From the NCBI GenBank assembly GCA_913056235.1, contig CAJXMW010000001.1:930001-994000 (forward strand): 64,000 nt of DNA, given 5' to 3'. Numbering within the stretch: position 1 is the stretch's first letter; each line of letters opens with the position of its first letter. Position numbers and translations under genes: made by a program. Shown here piece after piece: positions 16,674-30,234 of the stretch. The notes under the pieces are model-generated. The model saw only the letters and a program-made list of their open reading frames with translations. It was not told the origin of the DNA and did no database searches. The DNA comes from an uncultured Fodinibius sp. Lineage in GTDB: Bacteria; Bacteroidota; Rhodothermia; Balneolales; Balneolaceae.

Positions 16674-16764
16674 ATACATTCCAACAGCTTAATTACTATG
16701 TTTTCATCGATGACCAGACACATTTGATTTTATTAATATAATGCTTACTCAAAACGGTTGTATT

Positions 16765-17193
16765 ATGTATTCCAAAACATCATTTAAATATATTGTTCTC
16801 ATTGGCTTTGGAATTTTTATCTTCCAGGCTTGTGCTACCGTAGGTGGCGTCTCAGGCAGTACCAGAACGTATTCTGAAAGCTATGAAGCGGTCAAAGAGA
16901 TGGTGAACCAAGCTATTAATGAAACGAAGTTAACCATCGATGATATGGCTGAATTAAAGGATAAGCCAGTTACGGTGTACAAGATATCAGTCAACAAGGC
17001 GGTGGGTAAAACCCATATGACCCAAGAGGGCGGCAAAGTGATTGTTCGAAAACTGTCAAACGGTATTGTTGAAGTCGAGGTCGTAAACCCGGAGTATCAT
17101 TATACGGTGCCTGACTATCAGAAAGAGGATTACCAACGCATTTTGATGCCCGTGCTTGACAAACGAATGGAACCGCGCGAAGCTTCAAAGTAA
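16765..17193 (+). CDS. Lipoprotein of a locus-specific paralogous family (copy A)
   Basis: A 142-aa lipoprotein from the ATG at 16765; an earlier in-frame ATG at 16741 would only lengthen the signal peptide. Signal peptide, then lipobox IFQACATVGG. The mature part has an alpha helix (YSESYEAVKEMVNQAINETKL), then a beta-rich region ending VEVEVVNPEYHYTVPDYQKEDYQRI. The end matches copy B at 20136 and the stub at 16485. No known family is recognised. It converges on the histidine-kinase gene (23 bp gap). Position around the two-component pair suggests a link to envelope sensing, but this is inference. Confidence 0.75.
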   Translation: MYSKTSFKYIVLIGFGIFIFQACATVGGVSGSTRTYSESYEAVKEMVNQAINETKLTIDDMAELKDKPVTVYKISVNKAVGKTHMTQEGGKVIVRKLSNGIVEVEVVNPEYHYTVPDYQKEDYQRILMPVLDKRMEPREASK

Positions 17194-17216: not shown

Positions 17217-18581
17217 CTAGAACAGCATGGTAAATACGGTGCCCGACTTTTGATTAGATGAGACAGACAGGGCACCACGATGCTTGCGCATAATTTGGCG
17301 CGACAGGCTAAGGCCAATACCAGAACCACCACGTGATGTAGGTTGTTCGGTGGAATAAAAAGGGATGAAGATTTTCTGTTGGTTTTCGGGTTTAATCCCC
17401 GGTCCGTTGTCTTTTACCTGGATTATAACACGCCCCTCGTCGTTGAGTCGGCTTTGCAGTTTTATTGTGCCATTTTTCACTTCTTGCAGCGCCCGGAACG
17501 CATTTTTGGTCAGGTTGATAAGTACCTGCTCGATCAGGTGGGGATCGGCGGTTACTTCCAGCGTCTCGGGATCCACTGTTACCTCAATAGGGATTCCACG
17601 TTCTTCCGATTCTCCCTTGTTGAGATTTTTAACTCTCTGCAACAGTTTCTGAACGTTGAACACTTCGAAGCTGGGCTCGGGAATTTGCGTAAAATCTCGG
17701 TAGGAGTTCACAAACTGCATCAATCCATGGCTGCGGTTGTTGATGGTCTCCAGGGCTTCCTTCACATCTTGCAGCGATTCATCATCGATGATATGATGGC
17801 CGTTCTCGGATACCGCCTTGTGCTTTAGCACCATATGCACCGTATCTGACAGGGAGGCGATGGGTGTGATCGAGTTCATGATTTCGTGGGCCAGCACCTG
17901 CGTCAGATTTTGCCAGGCTTCCATCTCTTTTTCTTCCAGCTCGGAGTGGATGTTTTGAAAAGATACTAGTTTGTAGTGTTCTTCGTGCATGCGGAACTCG
18001 GTCGCATAAATAGCGAGCTGCATGGTTTCATTGTCGGTGGGAACGCGTACCAAGGTGCGATTTCCACCTTTCAGATTGGTGACAGCTTCAAAAAGAGATT
18101 CACTGATTTGTTTCAATGCGCCGATGGTGCGTAGAACGGGAACATCAAACAGTCGCTTGGCCGCTGTGTTGATGAGCTCAACTTTGCCGTCTTGATTAAA
18201 GGAGATGAGCCCAATGCCGATATGTTGTACCACGGTCTGCAGGTAGCGATAGCTCTCGTGTTTTTTAGCCCGTTCTTTTTTAAACTCTTCAATGACGCGG
18301 GAAAAAGCCTCGTTGAGTTCCGCAAATGAAGTGCCCAGCCCACGGTCGGTAAAGGCACGGGAAAAATCAGAGTAGCGAATGGAGTTTAGAAAGCGTGTTA
18401 GCTTCCGGTTGGTGCGCTCTACATATTTGATTAGTCGGTACACCTGAAAAACGATGACGAAAAAGAACAGCGAGATGGTTACATAGTATTGCGTCTGAAA
18501 AACCAGATATAGCCATAGAGCCAGCGTTACTGTCACGAATGTAACCCGGAAGATGACGCCGATTCGAAAGTTTTTGATCAT
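17217..18581 (-). CDS. NtrY-like sensor histidine kinase
   Basis: A 454-aa membrane histidine kinase counted from the ATG at 18581. An upstream ATG at 18653 exists but would overlap the regulator gene and lacks sense as a membrane start. Two close membrane helices (about residues 7-46) leave almost no periplasmic domain. Then a HAMP-like linker, a PAS domain (QTVVQHIGIGLISFNQDGKVELIN), the H box QVLAHEIMNSITPIASL with H232, the N box LINLTKNAFRAL, and G boxes DNGPGIKPE and GGSGIGLSLS. The order matches NtrY-type kinases paired with sigma-54 activators. It is 25 bp downstream of the response-regulator gene and co-transcribed. The signal is likely read in the membrane or cytosol. Confidence 0.92.
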   Translation of the reverse strand: MIKNFRIGVIFRVTFVTVTLALWLYLVFQTQYYVTISLFFFVIVFQVYRLIKYVERTNRKLTRFLNSIRYSDFSRAFTDRGLGTSFAELNEAFSRVIEEFKKERAKKHESYRYLQTVVQHIGIGLISFNQDGKVELINTAAKRLFDVPVLRTIGALKQISESLFEAVTNLKGGNRTLVRVPTDNETMQLAIYATEFRMHEEHYKLVSFQNIHSELEEKEMEAWQNLTQVLAHEIMNSITPIASLSDTVHMVLKHKAVSENGHHIIDDESLQDVKEALETINNRSHGLMQFVNSYRDFTQIPEPSFEVFNVQKLLQRVKNLNKGESEERGIPIEVTVDPETLEVTADPHLIEQVLINLTKNAFRALQEVKNGTIKLQSRLNDEGRVIIQVKDNGPGIKPENQQKIFIPFYSTEQPTSRGGSGIGLSLSRQIMRKHRGALSVSSNQKSGTVFTMLF

Positions 18582-18606
18582 TGCTGCTACATTTTGATAG
18601 AACCAG

Positions 18607-19992
18607 TTAGTTTTGCAGGCCGTATTTATCCATTCGCCGGTACAGCGATGCACGACTCAATCCCAGCTCATCGGCTGATTTTGAAATGTTGCCGTCGTGC
18701 TTCTCTAGGGCCTTCCGGATCACCGTTTTTTCTACTTCCTCCAGGTTGTAGTCGTCAAAAACCATGGTTGGCTCGTCGTCGCCCATAGAGGTTAGTAGAA
18801 AATCCTCGGGTTGCAGTATGCTATTATCGGTCATAATCACGGCGCGTTCGACAGCGTGTTGCAGCTCTCGCACGTTGCCGGGCCAGCGATATTTTTTCAG
18901 CTTGTTGAGGGCCGGCTCGGAAAGCGTTTGAATATTCTTTTCGTACTTGCGGGTGTAATCGTCCAGGAAGTGATCGGCTAGGAGCGGGATATCTTCGGTT
19001 CGCTCGCGAAGCGGCGGCAGCTGAATTTCAATTGTGTTGATGCGATACAGCAGATCCTGCCGAAACTCTTGATTTTGTACCATCTCCTGAATCGGTTCGT
19101 TGGTGGCGCAAATCAGCCGAATGTCAATTTCAATGGGCTTGTTGGAGCCGATGCGCATGATCTTGCGCGTCTCTATGGCCGACAAGAGTTTGGGCTGCAA
19201 CTGCAGGGGTAGGTTGCCGATTTCATCCAAAAATAGGGTACCGCCGGAGGCAATTTCGAACCGCCCGGCTCGCGATTCTTTGGCATCGGTAAAGGCGCCC
19301 TTGGTATGGCCAAATAGTTCGCTCTCAAACAGGTTTTCGGGGATAGCGCCCATGTCCACATTCATAAACACCTTGTCGCTGCGATCCGACCGGCGGTGCA
19401 GGGCGCGGGCGACCAGCTCCTTGCCGGTACCATTTTCACCGGTAATGAGCACATTGGCATCGGTCTTGGCCACCTTTTCGATGGTTTCAAACACTTTGTT
19501 CATGGCTGCACTGTGGCCGATGATATCCTGATAATGCTGGTCAATATCGGCGCTAAGTTGTTTTTGTTGTTTTTTTAGGACATCCACTTCGCGGCGCGAT
19601 TGCGTAAGGTTTAGTGCTGAATGCACGGTGGCAAGCAGCTTTTCGTTCTGCCAGGGTTTGAGCACAAAATCGGTAGCGCCCATTTTTATGGCTTTAACGG
19701 CTTTTTCCACATCCCCATAAGCCGTAATTAACACGACAGCCAGCGAGGGATCTATTTCGAGTATCTTGTTGAGCCAGTGAAATCCCTCCTTGCCACTGCT
19801 TACATCCTCGGTAAAATTCATATCCAGTAGCACCACATCGTAGTTATTGTTTTTGATGAGGTTGGGAATTGATTTTGGGCTTTTTTCGGTGTCAACTTTT
19901 GTGACATGCTGTTTCAGAAAAAGCTTGGCCGCCTGTAGCACATCATTATCATCATCGACCACCAGTATATGTCCTTTCTTAATTTCTGTCAT
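18607..19992 (-). CDS. NtrC-family sigma-54-dependent response regulator
   Basis: A 461-aa activator. Receiver: VVDDDNDV, phospho-acceptor D57 (LLDMNF), ITAYGD, K112. The AAA+ domain has Walker A GENGTGKE (185-192), Walker B GGTLFLDEIGNLP, and the sigma-54 contact loop written GAFTDA (232-237) instead of the classic GAFTGA. C-terminal Fis-type helix-turn-helix: ISKSADELGLSRASLYRRMDKYGL. It would remodel RNA polymerase-sigma-54 at -24/-12 promoters. A site close to that consensus lies 48 bp upstream of its own start, pointing to autoregulation. First gene of the pair with the kinase. Confidence 0.95.
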   Translation of the reverse strand: MTEIKKGHILVVDDDNDVLQAAKLFLKQHVTKVDTEKSPKSIPNLIKNNNYDVVLLDMNFTEDVSSGKEGFHWLNKILEIDPSLAVVLITAYGDVEKAVKAIKMGATDFVLKPWQNEKLLATVHSALNLTQSRREVDVLKKQQKQLSADIDQHYQDIIGHSAAMNKVFETIEKVAKTDANVLITGENGTGKELVARALHRRSDRSDKVFMNVDMGAIPENLFESELFGHTKGAFTDAKESRAGRFEIASGGTLFLDEIGNLPLQLQPKLLSAIETRKIMRIGSNKPIEIDIRLICATNEPIQEMVQNQEFRQDLLYRINTIEIQLPPLRERTEDIPLLADHFLDDYTRKYEKNIQTLSEPALNKLKKYRWPGNVRELQHAVERAVIMTDNSILQPEDFLLTSMGDDEPTMVFDDYNLEEVEKTVIRKALEKHDGNISKSADELGLSRASLYRRMDKYGLQN

Positions 19993-20039: not shown

Positions 20040-20055
20040 CACAATAGTTGTGCCA
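20040..20055 (-). promoter_or_regulatory. Sigma-54-like promoter of the response-regulator gene
   Basis: On the minus strand the sequence reads TGGCACAACTATTGTG. It has TGGCAC, a 5-nt spacer and TTGT; the consensus is TGGCAC-N5-TTGC. The GG of the -24 element and the G of the -12 element are exactly 10 bases apart. Transcription would start about 35 nt before the ATG at 19992. The last base of the -12 box is T instead of C. Because the gene encodes a sigma-54 activator, the site makes sense as autoregulation. Confidence 0.55.
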
Positions 20056-20135
20056 ACAATTTGATACTAGAAAACAATCAAAAAAATACTTAGTCTAAGT
20101 CAGTACTCACTTTAATTATTAAACATCATTTCACT

Positions 20136-20564
20136 ATGAAGTTAGTGTGGTCAAAAGTTCGGTTTGTGCTCGGTGCAGTGTTAATGCTTTTTGTACTTCA
20201 ATCGTGCGCCAGCAGTGGTAACAGTGTAAGTAATAAAGGCGAAAAAATTTATAATAAAGATTTCAATTCGATGGTTGAAACGGTTGAATCGGCGATCAGA
20301 AACAGTAAAATGTCGATCGAAACCTCTCAGCAATCGCAAAATCCCCAAACACTGACTATCATTGTAAGCGAAAGAGCCCAAATGAGAGGAAAGTCAGTGC
20401 AGCGCCGCCAAGGTGAGGTGCGTGTGATTAAGGTAGGTGAAAATAAAACCAAAGTGCGTATTACCAATCCTGACTACCATTATTCTGTACCGGAAGACAG
20501 CAGAACAGATTATCAACGAGTTATTTTAAATCGTATTGATTCGATGCTCAAGAAAAGGGGATAA
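20136..20564 (+). CDS. Lipoprotein of a locus-specific paralogous family (copy B)
   Basis: A 142-aa lipoprotein: signal peptide, lipobox VLQSCASSGN, an amphipathic helix (FNSMVETVESAIRNSKMSI), then a beta-rich part ending KVRITNPDYHYSVPEDSRTD and YQRVILNRIDSMLKKRG. It matches copy A at 16765 in layout, length and its C-terminal NP-Y-Y-VP...DYQR motif. The gene is divergent from the response regulator, with 143 bp between, and about 150 bp upstream of the adaptor gene. No known family recognised. A role in envelope surveillance or as a regulated target of the adjacent regulator is an inference from position only. Confidence 0.75.
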   Translation: MKLVWSKVRFVLGAVLMLFVLQSCASSGNSVSNKGEKIYNKDFNSMVETVESAIRNSKMSIETSQQSQNPQTLTIIVSERAQMRGKSVQRRQGEVRVIKVGENKTKVRITNPDYHYSVPEDSRTDYQRVILNRIDSMLKKRG

Positions 20565-20655
20565 GTGTTCGAAAACGGACATCTCCTGTTTGTATTTGTA
20601 CAGTCCTCTCTGTTAGCTACCCCGTTTGTTTTGGGCTGGGCACTGTTTTTGGGTT

Positions 20656-20671
20656 TGGCATAATGATTGAT
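20656..20671 (+). promoter_or_regulatory. Sigma-54-like promoter of the adaptor gene
   Basis: TGGCATAATGATTGAT matches TGGCAY-N5-TTG with correct 10-base spacing between the GG and the following G; only the final C of TTGC is A. A start about 30 nt before the adaptor ATG at 20712 is predicted. Together with the site upstream of the regulator gene it suggests that the NtrC-like protein drives this export locus. Confidence 0.5.
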
Positions 20672-20711: not shown

Positions 20712-22001
20712 ATGGCCGAACACAACGAAGATCGTATCTCCAGCTCTGGGATGGACAAGAAAATTGAGAAGAAAACCTGGACCCCAAAACGTATTGCCAT
20801 GATTGTTGGGGGTGTTGCCATCCTTGCGCTGTTTTTCTACAGCTTTGTATTTATGGATATGCGCTCCATGCTCAACGTGGACCGGGAAAAGTTGACCATT
20901 AGTACGGTACAGGAGGATTCGTTCCAGGAATTTATTCAGGTTACCGGTACGGTACAGCCTATTCAGACGATCTATCTTGATGCCATTGAGGGGGGCGTAG
21001 TCGAAAATATCTACCGCGAATCGGGCTCAATGGTTGAAAGAGGGGATACCATTTTGACCCTTTCCAACTCCGATCTGCGCCTGCAGGTGCTGCAACAGAG
21101 TTCGTCTATTTACGATCAGATCAACCAAACGAGAAACTCAAGACTCAATATTGAGCAGAACTCCCTGAGCTTGAAAGAGCGGCTGGCCCAGGCCGAAAAT
21201 CAGCTTGAGGTGGCGAAGTCTAATTTTAATCGGCAGAAAAAGCTGCATGAGCAGGATCTGATTGCCGAGCAGGATTTTCTGGAGACCAAAGAGAATTACC
21301 AGTATCAGAAAAAACGGTATAACCTGATTTATGAGTCGTTCAAGCAGGATTCCATAAAGTCGGAGCAGCAGCTCCAGCAGATCGACCAGTCGCTGGATCG
21401 CATGTGGCGGAGCCTGGAGGCCGTGCAGGGTATCTTGGATCGGTTGGTGGTAACGGCGCCTATATCGGGACAGCTTTCCACGATTGAGCTAAATCTGGGG
21501 CAGTCAATATCGTCCGGTGAACGTATCGGTCAGGTGGATATCCTGGATAACTACAAAATTCGTGTGGGCATTGATGAGTATCACTTGTCTCGCATTACAA
21601 AAGGTTTGCAGGGTTCATTTGAATTTAATGGCGAAGCGCATGAACTCAAGATCACCAAAGTGTATCCGGTGGTTGAGAACGGGCAGTTCCAGGTAGATAT
21701 GGAATTTGTTGATGAGGTGCCATCGGGCTTGACGCGTGGGCAAACGGTGCGCATACGCTTGGAGCTTAGCGATTCTTCACAAGCGCTGCTACTGGCGCGC
21801 GGTGGATTTTATCAGACGACTGGGGGAAACTGGGCTTACAAAATCAGCGAAGATGGAGAACAGGCCGTACGCACCAATATACAGCTCGGCCGCCAGAATC
21901 CAGATTATTTCGAGGTGCTGTCGGGACTAGAGCCCGGCGATAAGGTGATTACCTCCAGCTACGACACCTTTGGCGATAATGAGGTATTGAACTTGGAGTA
22001 G
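20712..22001 (+). CDS. HlyD/MacA-type periplasmic adaptor subunit
   Basis: A 429-aa membrane-fusion protein. A cytosolic N-terminus of about 30 residues, one membrane helix (MIVGGVAILALFFYSFVFM, about 30-48), then the biotinyl-lipoyl-like domain (VQPIQTIYLDAIEGGVVENIYRESGSMVERGDTIL), a long coiled-coil hairpin (about 130-240), VVTAPISGQLSTIELNLGQSI, a beta-barrel, and the membrane-proximal domain (VRTNIQLGRQNPDYFEVLSGLEPGDKVITS). It bridges an inner-membrane ABC transporter and an outer-membrane channel. The MacB-like ATPase and permeases downstream are the obvious partners; no TolC-like gene is in the window. Confidence 0.92.
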   Translation: MAEHNEDRISSSGMDKKIEKKTWTPKRIAMIVGGVAILALFFYSFVFMDMRSMLNVDREKLTISTVQEDSFQEFIQVTGTVQPIQTIYLDAIEGGVVENIYRESGSMVERGDTILTLSNSDLRLQVLQQSSSIYDQINQTRNSRLNIEQNSLSLKERLAQAENQLEVAKSNFNRQKKLHEQDLIAEQDFLETKENYQYQKKRYNLIYESFKQDSIKSEQQLQQIDQSLDRMWRSLEAVQGILDRLVVTAPISGQLSTIELNLGQSISSGERIGQVDILDNYKIRVGIDEYHLSRITKGLQGSFEFNGEAHELKITKVYPVVENGQFQVDMEFVDEVPSGLTRGQTVRIRLELSDSSQALLLARGGFYQTTGGNWAYKISEDGEQAVRTNIQLGRQNPDYFEVLSGLEPGDKVITSSYDTFGDNEVLNLE

Positions 22002-22040
22002 CAGCTTTCAGCAATTAGTTGTCAGCTGTCAGTTTTGACT
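22002..22040. repeat. Repeat copy at the left side of the four-helix-bundle gene
   Basis: GCAGCTTTCAGCAATTAGTTGTCAGCTGTCAGTTTTGAC contains GTCAGCTGTCAGTTTTGA, an inverted relative of the element at 22402-22429 and of the repeats before both permeases at 23197 and 25653. It starts right at the adaptor stop codon. Confidence 0.55.
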
Positions 22041-22381
22041 TTTTTAAGTAGTGAAAAGAGTATGCGTTTAATTTCTGTTACATTGTTATTTAGTTCTTTT
22101 GATTTATTGCTGGTAATGAATCCCAAATCTTGGGAAAGAATGATTTGGTACTCTAGCTCTGATGCTGATCCAAAGGCGATATTTAAGAATCTAGCAAATT
22201 GGGGTTGAGAGATTCTTCCACATCCTTCAGCAATATTTGAAGGGATGGAAGAGGCCGATCGTCGCATTTGACTGGTCAGTTCGTACCGTTCATCATTGGG
22301 AAATTGATCTGTCGATTGATAAATATTTAGGGTTAACTGATGTGCTTTTTCCCAAACGGAAAGTTTTTTAAAGTCTCTCAT
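22022..22381 (-). CDS. Four-helix-bundle protein (S23/IVP-type)
   Basis: A 119-aa protein of the four-helix-bundle family known from 23S rRNA intervening sequences: RDFKKLSVWEKAHQLTLNIY, TDQFPNDERYELTSQMRRSA, SSIPSNIAEGCGR and LNIAFGSASELEYQIIL are the hallmark blocks. Members are mobile-like hitchhikers in intergenic DNA and rRNA genes; related folds occur as accessory proteins of diversity-generating retroelements. Here it sits alone, on the opposite strand, splitting the adaptor from its ATPase gene, with related repeats on both sides. No reverse transcriptase is near. Molecular function is unknown; an RNA- or DNA-binding role is suspected for the family. Confidence 0.9.
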   Translation of the reverse strand: MRDFKKLSVWEKAHQLTLNIYQSTDQFPNDERYELTSQMRRSASSIPSNIAEGCGRISQPQFARFLNIAFGSASELEYQIILSQDLGFITSNKSKELNNNVTEIKRILFSLLKKVKTDS

Positions 22382-22401: not shown

Positions 22402-22429
22402 TGATTGCTGACAGCTGAAAACTGACTGC
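22402..22429. repeat. Repeat copy at the right side of the four-helix-bundle gene
   Basis: GATTGCTGACAGCTGAAAACTGACTGC is in the same orientation as the tail of the elements before the two permeases (CTGACTGCTGACAGCTGAAAACTGA at 23248 and onward) and opposite to the copy at 22002. The pair brackets the four-helix-bundle gene. Confidence 0.6.
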
Positions 22430-22505
22430 TTTTAATAATAAGACCGCTAAAATTGAGTGATCTTACAAAGTTTTTAAAAATTGACCATCAACAAATAGGA
22501 TAGCT

Positions 22506-23195
22506 ATGATTAAGACCAAAAACCTCAAGAAAGTTTACACCACCGAAGAGGTGGAAACGACGGCTCTCAATAATGTGAACCTGGAGATCAACGAAGGAGA
22601 GTTCTGCGCAATTATGGGACCCTCAGGGTGCGGAAAATCGACGCTGCTCAATATCATGGGTTTGCTCGATAATCCCACCGAGGGAGAGTACCACTTCTTG
22701 GATTATGAAGTGTCCAACAAATCCGAGCGCGAGCGGGCCAAGCTACGCAAAGGAAACATTGGCTTCGTCTTTCAGAGCTTTAACCTGATTGATGAGCTCA
22801 CCGTTTTTGAAAATGTGGAATTGCCGCTGTTGTATCTGGGAGCTTCCGCCGAGGAGCGCAAAGAAAAGGCCGAAGCCGCCTTGGAACGCATGAGTATGAT
22901 GCACCGCCGCAACCACTTCCCCCAGCAGCTTTCCGGTGGACAGCAGCAGCGCGTGGCCATTGCCCGAGCCGTGGTCGCCGATGCCAAGCTGATTCTGGCC
23001 GATGAGCCGACTGGTAATCTCGATTCCGATCATGGTGACGAAGTGATGAAGTTGCTGGCCGAGCTCAACGAGCAGGGTACCACTATTGTGATGGTAACCC
23101 ACTCTCCTCACGATGCCGATTACGCCCGACGCGTGATTCACCTGTTTGACGGACACGTAGTCACCGAAAATATGCAGGAAGGATTCCATGTTTAA
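22506..23195 (+). CDS. MacB/LolD-type ABC transporter ATPase
   Basis: A 229-aa ATPase. Walker [10 protein letters not shown] (38-46), Q-loop [13 protein letters not shown], signature [14 protein letters not shown] (LSGGQ at 142-146), Walker [14 protein letters not shown] (E166), and the H-loop [13 protein letters not shown]. The DEPTGNLDS form marks the LolD/MacB/FtsE branch that works with FtsX-like permeases. It drives mechanotransmission-type export or lipoprotein release rather than substrate import. It lies 504 bp after the adaptor gene, from which it is separated by the four-helix-bundle insertion, and 83 bp before the first large permease. Confidence 0.95.
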
Positions 23196-23196
23196 C

Positions 23197-23278
23197 GATA
23201 ATCAGCTGTCGGTTATCAGCTCTCAGATAAATACGAGTTGCTGATGAACTGACTGCTGACAGCTGAAAACTGAGAGCT
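23197..23278 (+). repeat. 82-bp repeat in front of permease 1
   Basis: The whole 82-bp gap between the ATPase stop and the permease ATG is a repeat. The copy at 25653-25734 has the same length and by my count 72 identical positions. It includes CTCAGATAAATACGAGT and GCTGATGAACTGACTGCTGACAG. The copies sit in the same place before two paralogous genes. Confidence 0.85.
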
Positions 23279-25654
23279 ATGCTCAAAAACTACATCAAGA
23301 TTGCGTGGAGAAATATTACGAGAAACAAGGGATATGCCCTGATTAACATCCTTGGATTGGCGGTGGGACTGGCCTGCTGTATTTTGATTGCCCAGTACGT
23401 TCAGGATGAGCTGAGCTATGACAACTTCCATAAAAAGTCGGTTTATTTTGTTGGCAAAGAGAGTTCTTTTGGGGGTAATTCCAGGAAAAGTATGTCCACA
23501 TCACTTCCGCTGGGACAAGCATTAGTGAACGAGATTCCCGAAGTAGAAAATTACGTACAGATGACGTGGCCGGGCAGTGGAAGCGTAAGTACGGACGGGG
23601 AAAACTTTACCGAAGAGGATCGTATCCTGAATGCCAGTTCTGCGTTTTTTGAGGTATTTAAGTTTTCGTTGAAAGTAGGGAATCCCGACAGAGTCTTGGA
23701 GCAGCCCAATTCGGTAGTGATTACCGAGGAGGTGGCCAGAAAATACTTCCCCGGTGAAAATCCGGTTGGTCAAACGCTCACTATTCAGAGATACGGTGAA
23801 AATGTGTATACGGTGACTGGAGTAGCTAAGAATGTAACTCAAAACAGTTACCTGGATTTTGATGTGGTTGGTACTCTTGGCTCTCTGCAAACCGTTAAGG
23901 ATAAAAAAGGCCAGGATGCCTGGGGTGCCAGTATGTTCCATACTTTTGCCTCGCTGAAAGAAGGGACCGATGCAGATTTTGTTGAATCAAAATTAGCTTC
24001 AGTGGCCGATAATCATTTCGATGAAGAGAGAAAAGTTTCTTTTTTCTTTGTCCCTGTTTCGGACTTATATATCTCAGATCTGGTATCCCGATCCGGTTTT
24101 AAGGGAGATATGAAATACATTTATATCTTTAGTGCTATTTCCCTGTTCATCCTGATTATTGCTTGTATCAACTACATGAACCTGGCTACGGCTCGGGCGG
24201 CGCAGCGTTCTCACGAGGTGGGTATTCGCAAGACCGTGGGCGCCGACCGCTGGCAGGTAGCGCGACAGTTTTTGGGAGAAGCAGTTATCATCAGCCTGTT
24301 TTCGTTTGTGATTGGTTTAGTGATTGCCGAACTGGCTCTGCCAATCTTTAATCAAATTTTTGACAAAGAACTTGAGCTGTTTTTCCAAGGGAATGTGGGT
24401 TTCCTGCTTTCTTTGTGTGGATTGGCCATTTTGGTGGGATTGATATCGGGCAGTTATCCTGCTTTTTATCTTTCCGGATTCCAGCCGCACCGTATTATCA
24501 GTGGGCAACTTTTTGGTCGCAAGCCCTCCGCCGGGCTCCGAAAAACGCTGGTCGTTTGTCAATATACGGTAACTGTGGCTCTGCTGATTGGTACTATCGT
24601 CGTTTTCAAGCAACTGCAATTTACACAGTCGAAAGATTTGGGATTTAATGAAGAGCAGGTGATTGTTGTTCCGATGCGGGGTGAGCTGACATCAAAACAC
24701 GATGTATTAAAGCAAGAGCTCCAGAAAAATCCGGATATTCTGAGTGTTACGGCTACTTCGGCAGTACCTTCGGAATACAATACGCGTTATGGACTGCCCT
24801 TCGATCCCAGTCAGCCTGATCGAGAAGTTAGTTTTTATGGGTTGTTTGCTGATCCGAATTACGTGGAAACGCTGGGTATGAAGATGGCCGCCGGACGCTT
24901 TTTTGAAGAAGCACGATCAAATGATAGTACTGTTGTAATAAATGAATCAGCAGTCGATAAACTGGGATGGGAGTCAGCGCAAAAAGCTGTAGGAAAACAA
25001 CTTACCCATGGTGAAGTAATAGGTGTTATTAAAGATTTTCATTTTTCTTCACTGAGGGAGAAGATTGACGGTATTTATATCAGGCCAGAACGTCCCGAAG
25101 ATTCACCTTTTGCATCGTATAATCAGATTGCGGCGCGGTTACATCCTGAAAAGATCGACCAGTCAATTGATTACATCAGGAGCAAATGGGAGTCGTTTGC
25201 CGGTGATCAAACGTTTAGCTATTCTTTTTTGGATCAAAAATTTGAGGAAATGTACCGCACTGAGCAGCGGTTAAGCCAGGTATTTATCACCTTTTCAGTT
25301 ATTGCGATTGTGATTGCTTGTCTTGGATTGCTTGGCTTGGCGGCCTATTCAGCTGAAAGGCGCACGAAAGAAATTGGTATCCGTAAAGTGATGGGTGCTA
25401 CCGTTACCAATATTGTGACGTTGTTAAGCAAAGATTTTGTAAAACTGGTGGTTTTGGGATTTGTGATTGCTGTTCCTATCGGCTGGTATGCAATGAATAA
25501 GTGGTTGCAGGATTTTGCCTACCGGATTGAGATAAATGCCGGCGTATTTCTGCTGGCCGGAGGTGTTGCTCTTTTAATTGCGTTGTTGACGGTAAGCTGG
25601 CAGGCGGCACGGGCAGCCTTGGCCAATCCGGTGAACAGTTTGCGAAGTGAATGA
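23279..25654 (+). CDS. FtsX/MacB-like ABC permease 1
   Basis: A 791-aa permease. N-terminal membrane helix after MLKNYIKIAWRNITRNKGY (INILGLAVGLACCILIA), a large periplasmic domain (about 50-280, ATPase-regulated MacB type), three helices around 285-400 with NYMNLATARAAQRSHEVGIRKTVGA, then a second half with helix, second periplasmic domain, and a final three-helix FtsX domain (RRTKEIGIRKVMGATVTNIV). Two FtsX domains make this the doubled 'ABC-type antimicrobial peptide transport' class frequent in Bacteroidota. It ends ARAALANPVNSLRSE. Partner is the preceding ATPase. The substrate is unknown. Confidence 0.92.
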   Translation: MLKNYIKIAWRNITRNKGYALINILGLAVGLACCILIAQYVQDELSYDNFHKKSVYFVGKESSFGGNSRKSMSTSLPLGQALVNEIPEVENYVQMTWPGSGSVSTDGENFTEEDRILNASSAFFEVFKFSLKVGNPDRVLEQPNSVVITEEVARKYFPGENPVGQTLTIQRYGENVYTVTGVAKNVTQNSYLDFDVVGTLGSLQTVKDKKGQDAWGASMFHTFASLKEGTDADFVESKLASVADNHFDEERKVSFFFVPVSDLYISDLVSRSGFKGDMKYIYIFSAISLFILIIACINYMNLATARAAQRSHEVGIRKTVGADRWQVARQFLGEAVIISLFSFVIGLVIAELALPIFNQIFDKELELFFQGNVGFLLSLCGLAILVGLISGSYPAFYLSGFQPHRIISGQLFGRKPSAGLRKTLVVCQYTVTVALLIGTIVVFKQLQFTQSKDLGFNEEQVIVVPMRGELTSKHDVLKQELQKNPDILSVTATSAVPSEYNTRYGLPFDPSQPDREVSFYGLFADPNYVETLGMKMAAGRFFEEARSNDSTVVINESAVDKLGWESAQKAVGKQLTHGEVIGVIKDFHFSSLREKIDGIYIRPERPEDSPFASYNQIAARLHPEKIDQSIDYIRSKWESFAGDQTFSYSFLDQKFEEMYRTEQRLSQVFITFSVIAIVIACLGLLGLAAYSAERRTKEIGIRKVMGATVTNIVTLLSKDFVKLVVLGFVIAVPIGWYAMNKWLQDFAYRIEINAGVFLLAGGVALLIALLTVSWQAARAALANPVNSLRSE

Positions 25655-25734
25655 TAATCAGCAACCAGCTGTCAGCTCTCAGATAAATACGAGTCGCTGA
25701 TGAACTGACTGCTGACAGTTGAAAATTGACAGCT
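25653..25734 (+). repeat. 82-bp repeat in front of permease 2
   Basis: Same length and near-identical sequence as 23197-23278, placed between the permease 1 stop and the permease 2 start. Differences cluster at positions 11-19 of the element. Suggests the upstream segment was duplicated together with the gene. Confidence 0.85.
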
Positions 25735-28125
25735 ATGCTCAAAAATTACATCAAGATTGCCTGGCGTAACTTAATTAGAAACAGAGCCTATTCGCTGATT
25801 AACGTACTTGGTTTGGCGGTTGGGATTGCCAGTTGCCTGCTAATTTTCCTATTTATCCAAGATGAGTTGAGCTACGATGAGTACCATAAAAACTCCGATC
25901 GTTTGTATCGGGTATATCGTAGTGCTGAATATCAGGGAGAGAAAGAGAAAACGCTAGCCACATCTAACTTACTGGGACCAACGCTGGAAAAAGAAATTCC
26001 AGAAGTATCTGGTTATATGCGTCTGAGTAATAGGTGGTTGAACGTGATGGTAGAGGAGGGCAAGCAAAAATACAAGGAGTATAAATTCTTTTTTGCTGAT
26101 TCATCCATCTTTGAAATGTTCAGTTTTAAATTATTAAAAGGGAATCCGGATACCGCCCTGGATCGGCCTTTTACCGTAGTGATTACCGAAAATATGGCCC
26201 ACAAATATTTTGGGGATGCCAATGCTATCGGCAAAACGCTGACCATTCGCGGCTCATGGGGAGCTGATGATTATGAAGTGACGGGTGTGATGGGCAATAT
26301 CAGGCACGATTCCCATTTTTCGTTCAACTTTTTAACCTCTATGCAGACGCTGCGTTCTAAAACACCGGATGGGAGTGATTTTGCCAGTTGGTATCACATC
26401 GGTAGCTACACCTATGTAATGCTGGAATCGGGTGTAAAATCTGCTAATCTAACCAATGATCTCAATAAGTTTGTCAAACGTCATTTTGACGGGAAACGAG
26501 CTTCTTTTATGCAGTATAAATTACAACCCATCACCGATATTCACCTATACTCTCATTTTGAGAGGGAAATCGAGCCAAACGGAGACGTTCGTTACCTGTA
26601 CATTTTCGGGAGTATAGCTCTTCTTATCCTGATTATTGCGGGAATCAACTACATGAATTTGGCTACGGCACGCAGCGCAGACCGGGCGATGGAGGTGGGT
26701 ATTCGCAAGACATTGGGCGTCGATCGGAAACGACTGATTGGCCAGTTCTTGAGTGAATCATTTGTGTTCTGTCTTATATCACTTGTATTGGGATTGCTGT
26801 TTGCAGAGATCATGCTACCCTATTTTAACAGTATTACGGGCAAGCCTTTGAGTCTTGACATACTCGATCCACAATTACTGCTGGCTATACTTGCTGTTCT
26901 TTTATTAGTGGGGATATTGGCAGGACTTTATCCAGCCTTCGTATTGTCTGGTTTTAATCCCAGTCAAGTGTTTAGCGGGGCCGTAGGAGGTCGGAAGAAA
27001 TCAAACCTCAGAAATGCGTTGGTGGTTTTTCAGTTTGCTATTTCTATTGTCCTGATTGCTGGAACTATTGTTATTAATAACCAACTGGACCATGTCCGCA
27101 ATAAACGCCTGGGTTTCAACCAGGAGCAAGTTCTTACCCTATCCACAGCGGCCGGCAGGGAGTTCAAGAAAAATTACAATGCTTTTAAAGACCGTTTACT
27201 CAGTTATCCCGATATCAAAAGTATAACTCATATAAATCTCCCGATACCCACCGAGCATGAGAATAAACTCGAACTGACCCCACAAGGCAAAAAGAAAAGC
27301 TTAGAGATTAGCAATTTTTCGGTTGGCAAAAATTTTGTCAAAACACTGCAGGTACCGCTGAAAAAAGGCATGAGTTTGTCTGATTTATCAGCCGATACAA
27401 TGTCCGATAATATCCCGGTACTAATTAACGAAGCGGCGGCTCAGGAATGGGGGTGGCAAGAGCCGTTGGGCAAAACTATAGACGGGTTTTCTCCAAAGTT
27501 TAAGGTAGCAGGCGTAGTAGGTAATTTTCACTACCGTTCTTTGAAAACAAAAATTGGTCCTTTGGTGCTTTGGCCAAACAGTTACTCAGTCAGAAATGTT
27601 ATGATCAGGATTGGCAAAGGGAAGATATCAGAAACGATGTCACGGATCGAAGAAGCTTGGGATGAGATGGGGCCTGGTACGCCAATGAATTACAGCTTTG
27701 CTGATGATCGGTTTGATGCGATGTACAAATCCGAAGACCGGCTGGCAATGATATTTGGCAGCTTCTCAATTTTGGGCATTGTTATCGCCTGCCTTGGATT
27801 GCTTGGCCTGGCGGCCTACACAGCCGAACGCCGTACCAAAGAAATTGGGGTCCGCAAGGTGATGGGAGCAACCGTCACCAATATTATCACGTTGCTGAGT
27901 AAGGATTTTATGAAATTAGTACTGCTGGGATTTGTGATTGCAGTGCCCGTTGCCTGGTATTCAATGCATCAGTGGTTAACCGACTTTGCCTATCGAATTG
28001 AGATAGGTGCGGGGGTATTTATAATAGCCGGAGGTGCTGCTTTTTTGATTGCGTTACTCACGGTAAGCTGGCAGGCGGCACGGGCAGCCCTGGCCAATCC
28101 TGTGGAAAGTTTGCGTACCGAATAG
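25735..28125 (+). CDS. FtsX/MacB-like ABC permease 2
   Basis: A 796-aa paralogue of permease 1 with the same start (MLKNYIKIAWRN) and end (ARAALANPVESLRTE). The ATG at 25735 is chosen over 25726 because it aligns with permease 1 and follows the shared repeat. Layout: helix, periplasmic domain, three helices (NYMNLATARSADRAMEVGIRKTLGV), helix, second periplasmic domain, three-helix FtsX domain (RRTKEIGVRKVMGATVTNIITLLSKDF). Periplasmic parts differ much from permease 1, while the FtsX parts are nearly the same, which points to different partners or cargo with one shared ATPase. Confidence 0.92.
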   Translation: MLKNYIKIAWRNLIRNRAYSLINVLGLAVGIASCLLIFLFIQDELSYDEYHKNSDRLYRVYRSAEYQGEKEKTLATSNLLGPTLEKEIPEVSGYMRLSNRWLNVMVEEGKQKYKEYKFFFADSSIFEMFSFKLLKGNPDTALDRPFTVVITENMAHKYFGDANAIGKTLTIRGSWGADDYEVTGVMGNIRHDSHFSFNFLTSMQTLRSKTPDGSDFASWYHIGSYTYVMLESGVKSANLTNDLNKFVKRHFDGKRASFMQYKLQPITDIHLYSHFEREIEPNGDVRYLYIFGSIALLILIIAGINYMNLATARSADRAMEVGIRKTLGVDRKRLIGQFLSESFVFCLISLVLGLLFAEIMLPYFNSITGKPLSLDILDPQLLLAILAVLLLVGILAGLYPAFVLSGFNPSQVFSGAVGGRKKSNLRNALVVFQFAISIVLIAGTIVINNQLDHVRNKRLGFNQEQVLTLSTAAGREFKKNYNAFKDRLLSYPDIKSITHINLPIPTEHENKLELTPQGKKKSLEISNFSVGKNFVKTLQVPLKKGMSLSDLSADTMSDNIPVLINEAAAQEWGWQEPLGKTIDGFSPKFKVAGVVGNFHYRSLKTKIGPLVLWPNSYSVRNVMIRIGKGKISETMSRIEEAWDEMGPGTPMNYSFADDRFDAMYKSEDRLAMIFGSFSILGIVIACLGLLGLAAYTAERRTKEIGVRKVMGATVTNIITLLSKDFMKLVLLGFVIAVPVAWYSMHQWLTDFAYRIEIGAGVFIIAGGAAFLIALLTVSWQAARAALANPVESLRTE

Positions 28126-28631: not shown

Positions 28632-28654
28632 GAAACTGACCCTAAAACTTGTCG

Positions 28655-28702
28655 GCAAGGGCTGCCCTGGCCAATCCGATGGATAGCCTGCGAAGTGAGT
28701 AG
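28655..28702 (+). pseudogene. C-terminal remnant of a further permease
   Basis: Fifteen codons and a stop read ARAALANPMDSLRSE, the exact type of ending shared by permeases 1 and 2 (ARAALANPVNSLRSE). Nothing upstream is in frame with a permease; the preceding 20 bp follow the stop of the unknown secreted gene. This is the tail end of a deleted gene copy. Confidence 0.75.
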
Positions 28703-28752
28703 CAGGCGTGAAACGTGGGACCTCAGACGTTTTAGGAACTTCGTTTCGCTTC

Positions 28753-29267: not shown

Positions 29268-29556
29268 GATTTTATGTAACGGTTGGCATCACTAACGACT
29301 AAAAAACAAGTTACAATAAGTTCCAAAAATAATCTACTTAAATTGTCAGCTGCTTTATTTTTGAACCTCTGTCCGATTTCGTACAGTGGCTGTTTCATAC
29401 CGTACAGCAGATTGTTTTAAATCCTTTTTTACACCGCCCAAAGCCACTCTTGGTAATTGGTATGATTGTTGGATGAATAACGTTGTAACGTATTTAGGTG
29501 TTAACGTGCGCAAACAGCAGACGATAACACTTTAATACATTAATACGATTTACTTT

Positions 29557-30234
29557 ATGATCGAACTTAGAGACATAGACAAATACATCGACAAACGGTT
29601 TCAGCGGACGTTTATCCTCAACGGTATCGACCTGGATGTTGAGGAAGGCGAATTTCTTACCGTAATGGGACCAAGCGGCGCGGGTAAATCCACCTTGCTG
29701 AACATCATTGGTTTTCTCGATGAGCCCTCGGAAGGGGAGTACCACTTTCTCGGGGAGGCCGTCCATGACTTGAGTGCCAAACGGAAATCCGAATATCACA
29801 AGTCGCACATTGGCTTTGTGTTTCAGGCCTACCATCTTATTGATGAGATGACCGTGTACGAAAACATTGAGATGCCGCTTTTGTACCGCAAGGTGAAGAG
29901 CAAGAAGCGTAAAGCGATGGTGGCCGACATGTTGGATCGCTTCAATATTGTGGCCAAGAAAGATCTGTTCCCGCCGCAGCTTTCTGGGGGCCAGCAGCAG
30001 GTGGTGGGCGTAGCTCGTGCGCTGATCGGCAGTCCCAAGTTAATTCTGGCCGATGAGCCAACGGGCAACCTGCACTCCGAGCAGAGCGAGCAGATCATGG
30101 AGCTGCTCACCAAGCTGAACGAGGAGGACAATGTGACGATTATCCAAGTTACGCATTCCGAAAAGATGGCCTCTTACAGCAACCGGATTATCAATCTCAA
30201 AGATGGCGTGATTGTGGACGACGATCCCTATTAG
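29557..30234 (+). CDS. MacB/LolD-type ABC transporter ATPase (second)
   Basis: A 225-aa ATPase with Walker [10 protein letters not shown] (38-46), Q-loop [13 protein letters not shown], signature [15 protein letters not shown], Walker [12 protein letters not shown] and the H-loop [14 protein letters not shown]. It differs from the first ATPase in the signature helix (VVGVARAL instead of RVAIARA) and in HSEQ after the Walker B. No permease gene follows directly; the nearest on the same strand begins 2.35 kb downstream at 32587, or it may serve the upstream permeases. A terminator hairpin follows immediately. Confidence 0.93.

Follow-up and report, generated by a model that had tools for sequence, protein, structure and literature searches.

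The window analysed here, a stretch of 64,000 nucleotides from an uncultured Fodinibius sp. of the Balneolaceae, very probably carries a sigma-54 regulon built around an ABC exporter of the MacAB/DarBCD-like kind, in which a histidine kinase, a response regulator, enhancer pairs, and -24/-12 promoters would form one circuit. This reading draws on promoter motifs and enhancer pairs at a set spacing, their conservation in relatives, their co-occurrence with the regulator, and the presence of rpoN. Of three -24/-12-like sites, the two before the adaptor gene and before the second ATPase gene are strongly supported as sigma-54 promoters: each has a conserved enhancer pair at a fixed distance, and relatives show the same layout. 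The site before the regulator gene is a good match and a plausible sigma-54 promoter, but an enhancer is absent within 200 bp of it. The sequence-only reading of this DNA had claimed all three.

The adaptor site, TGGCATAATGATTGA, lies on the plus strand at 20656-20670, and the ATPase 2 site, TGGTATGATTGTTGG, on the same strand at 29458-29472. The regulator-side site, TGGCACAACTATTGT, is on the minus strand at 20041-20055. All three sequences named in the sequence-only reading were found in the window, and the coordinates of the 15-mers needed only one-base corrections. The strict 10-base spacing described there (GG-N10-G) is correct at each site; of the features of a sigma-54 promoter, GG, TTG, and spacing are present and the final C of the -12 box is absent, replaced by T (20041), A (20656), and G (29458), as had been noted. 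The distance of 30-40 nt to the start codon was an underestimate, the end of the 15-mer lying 48 nt (20041 site) and 41 nt (20656 site) from the ATG. For the 29458 site the distance is 84 nt, not 85, and this site, which had been called weaker, is nevertheless strongly supported by its enhancer pair. The predicted leaders are ~36, ~29, and ~72 nt for the 20041, 20656, and 29458 sites, respectively.

By itself, the motif is weak evidence for these sites, since TGGCAY-N5-TTGC with two or fewer mismatches has 136 matches in the window versus 120 expected. Genome-wide, the strict form TGGCAY-N5-TTGC occurs 27 times versus 8 for the reversed pattern, and TGGCAY-N5-TTG[A/G/T] 111 times versus 41. 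A search for rpoN, which had been proposed as a check, recovered a single intact gene (507 aa) with an RpoN box (ARRTVSKYRKK) and an intact DNA-binding domain, so an objection from a missing sigma factor does not arise.

Decisive for the promoter reading is an element absent from the earlier interpretation, a pair of tandem palindromes. Comparing the intergenic DNA between regulator and adaptor across 12 relatives defined it as TGTNCG-N4-CGNACA followed by a weaker copy 21 bp on. Before the adaptor gene the pair (20566-20602, period 21 bp) consists of TGTTCGAAAACGGACA (20566-20581) and TGTTTGTATTTGTACA (20587-20602) and starts 90 bp before the 20656 site; before ATPase 2 it consists of TGTCCGATTTCGTACA (29370-29385) and TGTTTCATACCGTACA (29391-29406), spans 29370-29406, and starts 88 bp before the 29458 site. 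The enhancer core is found at three places in the 4-Mb genome and the pair at exactly two, while controls gave none. Among the ~120 strict -24/-12 sites listed in this genome, the adaptor site is the only one with an upstream pair. A 22-bp period was also considered and has no match in the genome, 21 bp being the right value; aligning the DNA of three intergenic regions contributed little more. At 20565-20582 the enhancer copy can also be scored as a terminator-like hairpin, but it is conserved in loci that have no gene end at that position.

The same arrangement recurs in the family. In the window and in the 12 relatives that share its regulator (68-85% identical), scanned for distances of 80-96 bp, all 37 distinct cassettes of pair plus promoter have a distance of 88 (n=4), 89 (n=11), or 90 bp (n=22). 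The genes behind them encode duplicated MacB/FtsX (ADOP-like) permeases (19), the adaptor (12), the regulator (2), a beta-lactamase-fold hydrolase (2), and ATPase 2 (1), with one unassigned. TGGCAY-N5-TTGA stands at 88-90 bp in 12/12 orthologous adaptor loci, and the TGGTAY type seen at 29458 recurs at the same distance before permease genes of relatives, once letter for letter (L073). Seven further pair matches in this sample lack a promoter where one would be expected, and several of these are without enhancer-like half-sites.

These observations bear on two competing explanations. It is extremely improbable that the -24/-12 matches arose by chance and that the genes use ordinary sigma-A-type promoters: the near-expected number of loose matches and the sigma-70-like hexamers that can be found in the region would fit such an origin, but neither the constant 88-90 bp between promoter and a rare enhancer pair, seen in 37 cassettes, nor the co-occurrence of that pair with the regulator would. 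It is very unlikely, if a little less so, that the sigma-54 promoters are true and an activator other than the neighbouring regulator binds the palindromes. This genome has at least seven sigma-54 activator genes, and the regulator-side site resembles sites of an exopolysaccharide cluster; however, genomes that have this regulator carry the pair in 13/13 cases and those lacking the regulator in 5/45 (Fisher P 2.7e-9), and the five matches in regulator-less relatives look chance-like because the CG half-sites are missing, leaving practically none of the 45.

The association with the neighbouring regulator also holds over larger distances, since the same enhancer core surrounds it in other phyla. 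Regulators ~62-72% identical are found in many phyla, including Bacteroidota, Acidobacteriota, KSB1, Zixibacteria, and Latescibacteria, and the core occurs 49 times, with a control count of 0, in 1.23 Mb surrounding the regulators of other phyla. Promoter distances there cluster at 88-94 and 100-103 bp, approximately one helical turn apart. A stricter scan for the pair in other phyla returned three cases only, because the second copy is spaced differently there. In L138, L140, L148, and other Bacteroidia/Cytophagia loci, the enhancer-promoter distance is 100-103 bp (82 bp from the nearer copy) and not 88-94 bp.

The regulator gene (18607-19992, minus strand) encodes an NtrC-type response regulator with a receiver, an AAA+ sigma-54 activator domain, and a Fis-type HTH (PF00072, PF00158, and PF02954 at 76, 235, and 58 bits), which bears out the claim that the sites lie next to a sigma-54 activator. 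It scores under the NCBIfam cut-offs of AtoC, NtrC, ZraR, and the PEP-CTERM response regulator. With systems of the NtrC/ZraR/AtoC type it shares the three domains, palindromic enhancers ~90 bp upstream, and -24/-12 promoters with GG-N10; it differs in its GAFTDA loop, in the TTGA/TTGG -12 box of all Balneolaceae cassettes, and in having ABC exporter genes as putative targets. The loop reads GAFTDA rather than GAFTGA here and in 12/12 orthologues of relatives, and among the other activators of the genome, those whose loop was read show GAFTGA, GSFTGA, or GAYTGA. GAFTDA is among the variants listed as compatible with activity in Desulfovibrio vulgaris (PMC4641369), and it fails the exact GAFTGA filter of a promoter survey (PMC12316311).

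The adjacent histidine kinase gene (17217-18653, minus strand), whose likely start is an ATG near 18581, encodes a protein whose two hydrophobic helices are joined by ~6 residues, as in relatives with a readable start. Two helices joined by a very short loop are the typical layout of intramembrane-sensing kinases, and this layout is also that of the BceRS-BceAB-type detoxification modules of Firmicutes. Common to these modules and the present system are the two-helix kinase with almost no external loop and its location beside FtsX-type ABC transporter genes; the NtrC-type regulator and sigma-54 set the present system apart. On either side of the two-component genes lie two divergent members of a family of small lipoprotein-like genes (16741-17193 and 20136-20564), which have no Pfam match and, among the relatives searched, occur in the same genus only.

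Downstream of the first cassette, all on the plus strand, are genes for an HlyD/MacA-type periplasmic adaptor (20712-22001), ABC ATPase 1 (DarD/MacB/LolD-like, 22506-23195), a duplicated MacB/FtsX permease (ADOP-like, 23279-25654) in which the MacB_PCD and FtsX domains are each found twice, and a second permease of this kind (25726-28125), listed with a TTG start and having an ATG a few codons later. ABC ATPase 2 (29557-30234, plus strand) lies downstream of the second cassette. DarBCD and ADOP provide the best equivalog or subfamily models for the adaptor (DarC), ATPases, and permease, but every score is under the curated cut-off: the NCBIfam equivalogs of the darobactin exporter reach 247/450 (DarC), 271/375 (DarD), and 129/700 bits (DarB), and ADOP (TIGR03434) reaches 330 versus 622 bits with a full-length match.

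Several features interrupt or adjoin the exporter genes. A 23S_rRNA_IVP/bAvd-like four-helix gene (22022-22381, minus strand) lies antisense within the exporter operon and is flanked by 23-bp inverted repeats (22010-22032 and 22408-22430), with further copies near 23256 and 25706; bAvd-like genes are found at the same place in L070, L072, and L073. The flanking repeats, the shared place in relatives, and the further inserts that L069 and L073 seem to carry suggest that this gene is mobile. A remnant of a permease 3' end (28653-28707) lies after the operon and ahead of the second cassette. A permease may have been lost at this place, since the other cassettes of relatives usually drive permeases. 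Farther downstream, a beta-lactamase-fold serine hydrolase gene (PF00144, 31360-32466) could have a functional connection with the exporter, as its homologues in L258 and L262 follow enhancer cassettes of their own.

At the regulator-side site the evidence is divided. An enhancer was not found within 200 bp of it, a small lipoprotein-like gene (20136-20564, plus strand, with relatives only in the same genus) intervenes before the pair at 20566, and the 15-mer recurs letter for letter at two sites of the exopolysaccharide cluster in the same genome. These points would fit a sigma-54 promoter that answers to a different activator or works without a nearby enhancer, or an unused site with a constitutive regulator promoter elsewhere, a reading to which we give a slightly less than even chance. 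On the other side, 9/10 relatives without the inserted gene have a weaker divergent counterpart ([ATG]GGYAY-N5-TTGW) at 90-101 bp from the enhancer, and NtrC-kind activators are able to act over several hundred bases. The site in the window is a better match than these counterparts, and their position on the regulator side of the shared enhancer suggests ancestral autoregulation. The regulator's own promoter is probably of the sigma-54 type as well, with putative autoregulation. L069 and L073 seem to hold another insert between enhancer and regulator. A palindrome directly upstream of the regulator site (ACTTAGTCTAAGT) was considered as an enhancer and does not match it, and a common enhancer was sought among the exopolysaccharide sites and not found.

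The -12 box distinguishes the regulon from the rest of the genome. Its final base in the 37 Balneolaceae cassettes is A (28) or G (9) and never C or T, and among the strict matches listed for this genome, C or T is found in 24/34 sites upstream of genes versus 29/86 in coding DNA. Since the other sites of the genome are mostly TTGC/TTGT, TTGA/TTGG looks regulon-specific rather than a trait of the organism's sigma-54, and different regulons within one genome would thus favour different -12 bases. A coupling of GAFTDA to TTGA, to which the window and 12 relatives had pointed, was rejected; distant GAFTDA regulators accompany enhancer-linked C, T, A, and G, so this loop does not dictate the -12 base. 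The exopolysaccharide cluster (contig 4, 125000-196000; L080, L085-L087) has about nine sigma-54-like sites, mostly TGGCAC-N5-TTGT, which adjoin the gene of a GAFTGA activator too short for a receiver domain. More speculatively, and with the odds against it, one kinase and activator could run a plug-in export system, with cassettes before many scattered duplicated permeases sharing one adaptor and ATPase, and the unusual box could insulate this regulon from the TTGC/TTGT promoters of the genome.

In the mechanism that we favour, the kinase would sense a signal in the membrane, probably envelope or peptide stress, and phosphorylate its partner regulator. The active GAFTDA regulator would bind the two adjacent palindromes, which lie 21 bp apart on one face of the helix, assemble its AAA+ ring, and act from ~90 bp upstream on closed sigma-54 RNA polymerase at -24/-12, and the remodelled polymerase would then open the DNA at -12. 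In PspF, the GAFTGA loops engage sigma-54 and DNA downstream of -12 (PMC9770992). The cassette at 20566-20670 is predicted to drive the adaptor gene, and probably also the ATPase and permease genes behind it, and the cassette at 29370-29472 to drive ATPase 2. We infer binding of the regulator to the pair, activation of the polymerase, control by phosphorylation, the signal, the extent of the operon, and the exported substrate from the sequence. A single sensor may control a dispersed set of permeases, since relatives carry further cassettes before separate permease genes.

A link between such permeases and sigma-54 is already known. According to excerpts of PMC12316311 (2025), a promoter-matrix survey that kept only activators with exact GAFTGA, FtsX-type permeases (COG0577) are enriched under predicted sigma-54 promoters in Bacteroidia, Opitutia, and gamma-proteobacteria, which was called the first evidence. 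That survey and the present analysis both tie MacB/FtsX-type permeases to sigma-54; the excerpts do not name the activator, enhancer, or spacing for the permease genes, which are proposed here. We found nothing closer in the open-access literature, neither a paper naming this activator, enhancer, or spacing nor a described sigma-54 regulon of Balneolaceae, and the three appear to be undescribed there. Strict filters, whether for exact GAFTGA or for a TTGC -12 box, overlook a conserved sigma-54 regulon of this kind. If the reading is true, it would assign a specific activator, with its binding site and promoter, to a large family of MacB/FtsX exporters in several phyla whose regulation is mostly unknown, and would allow co-regulated permeases within a genome to be located by a simple rule.
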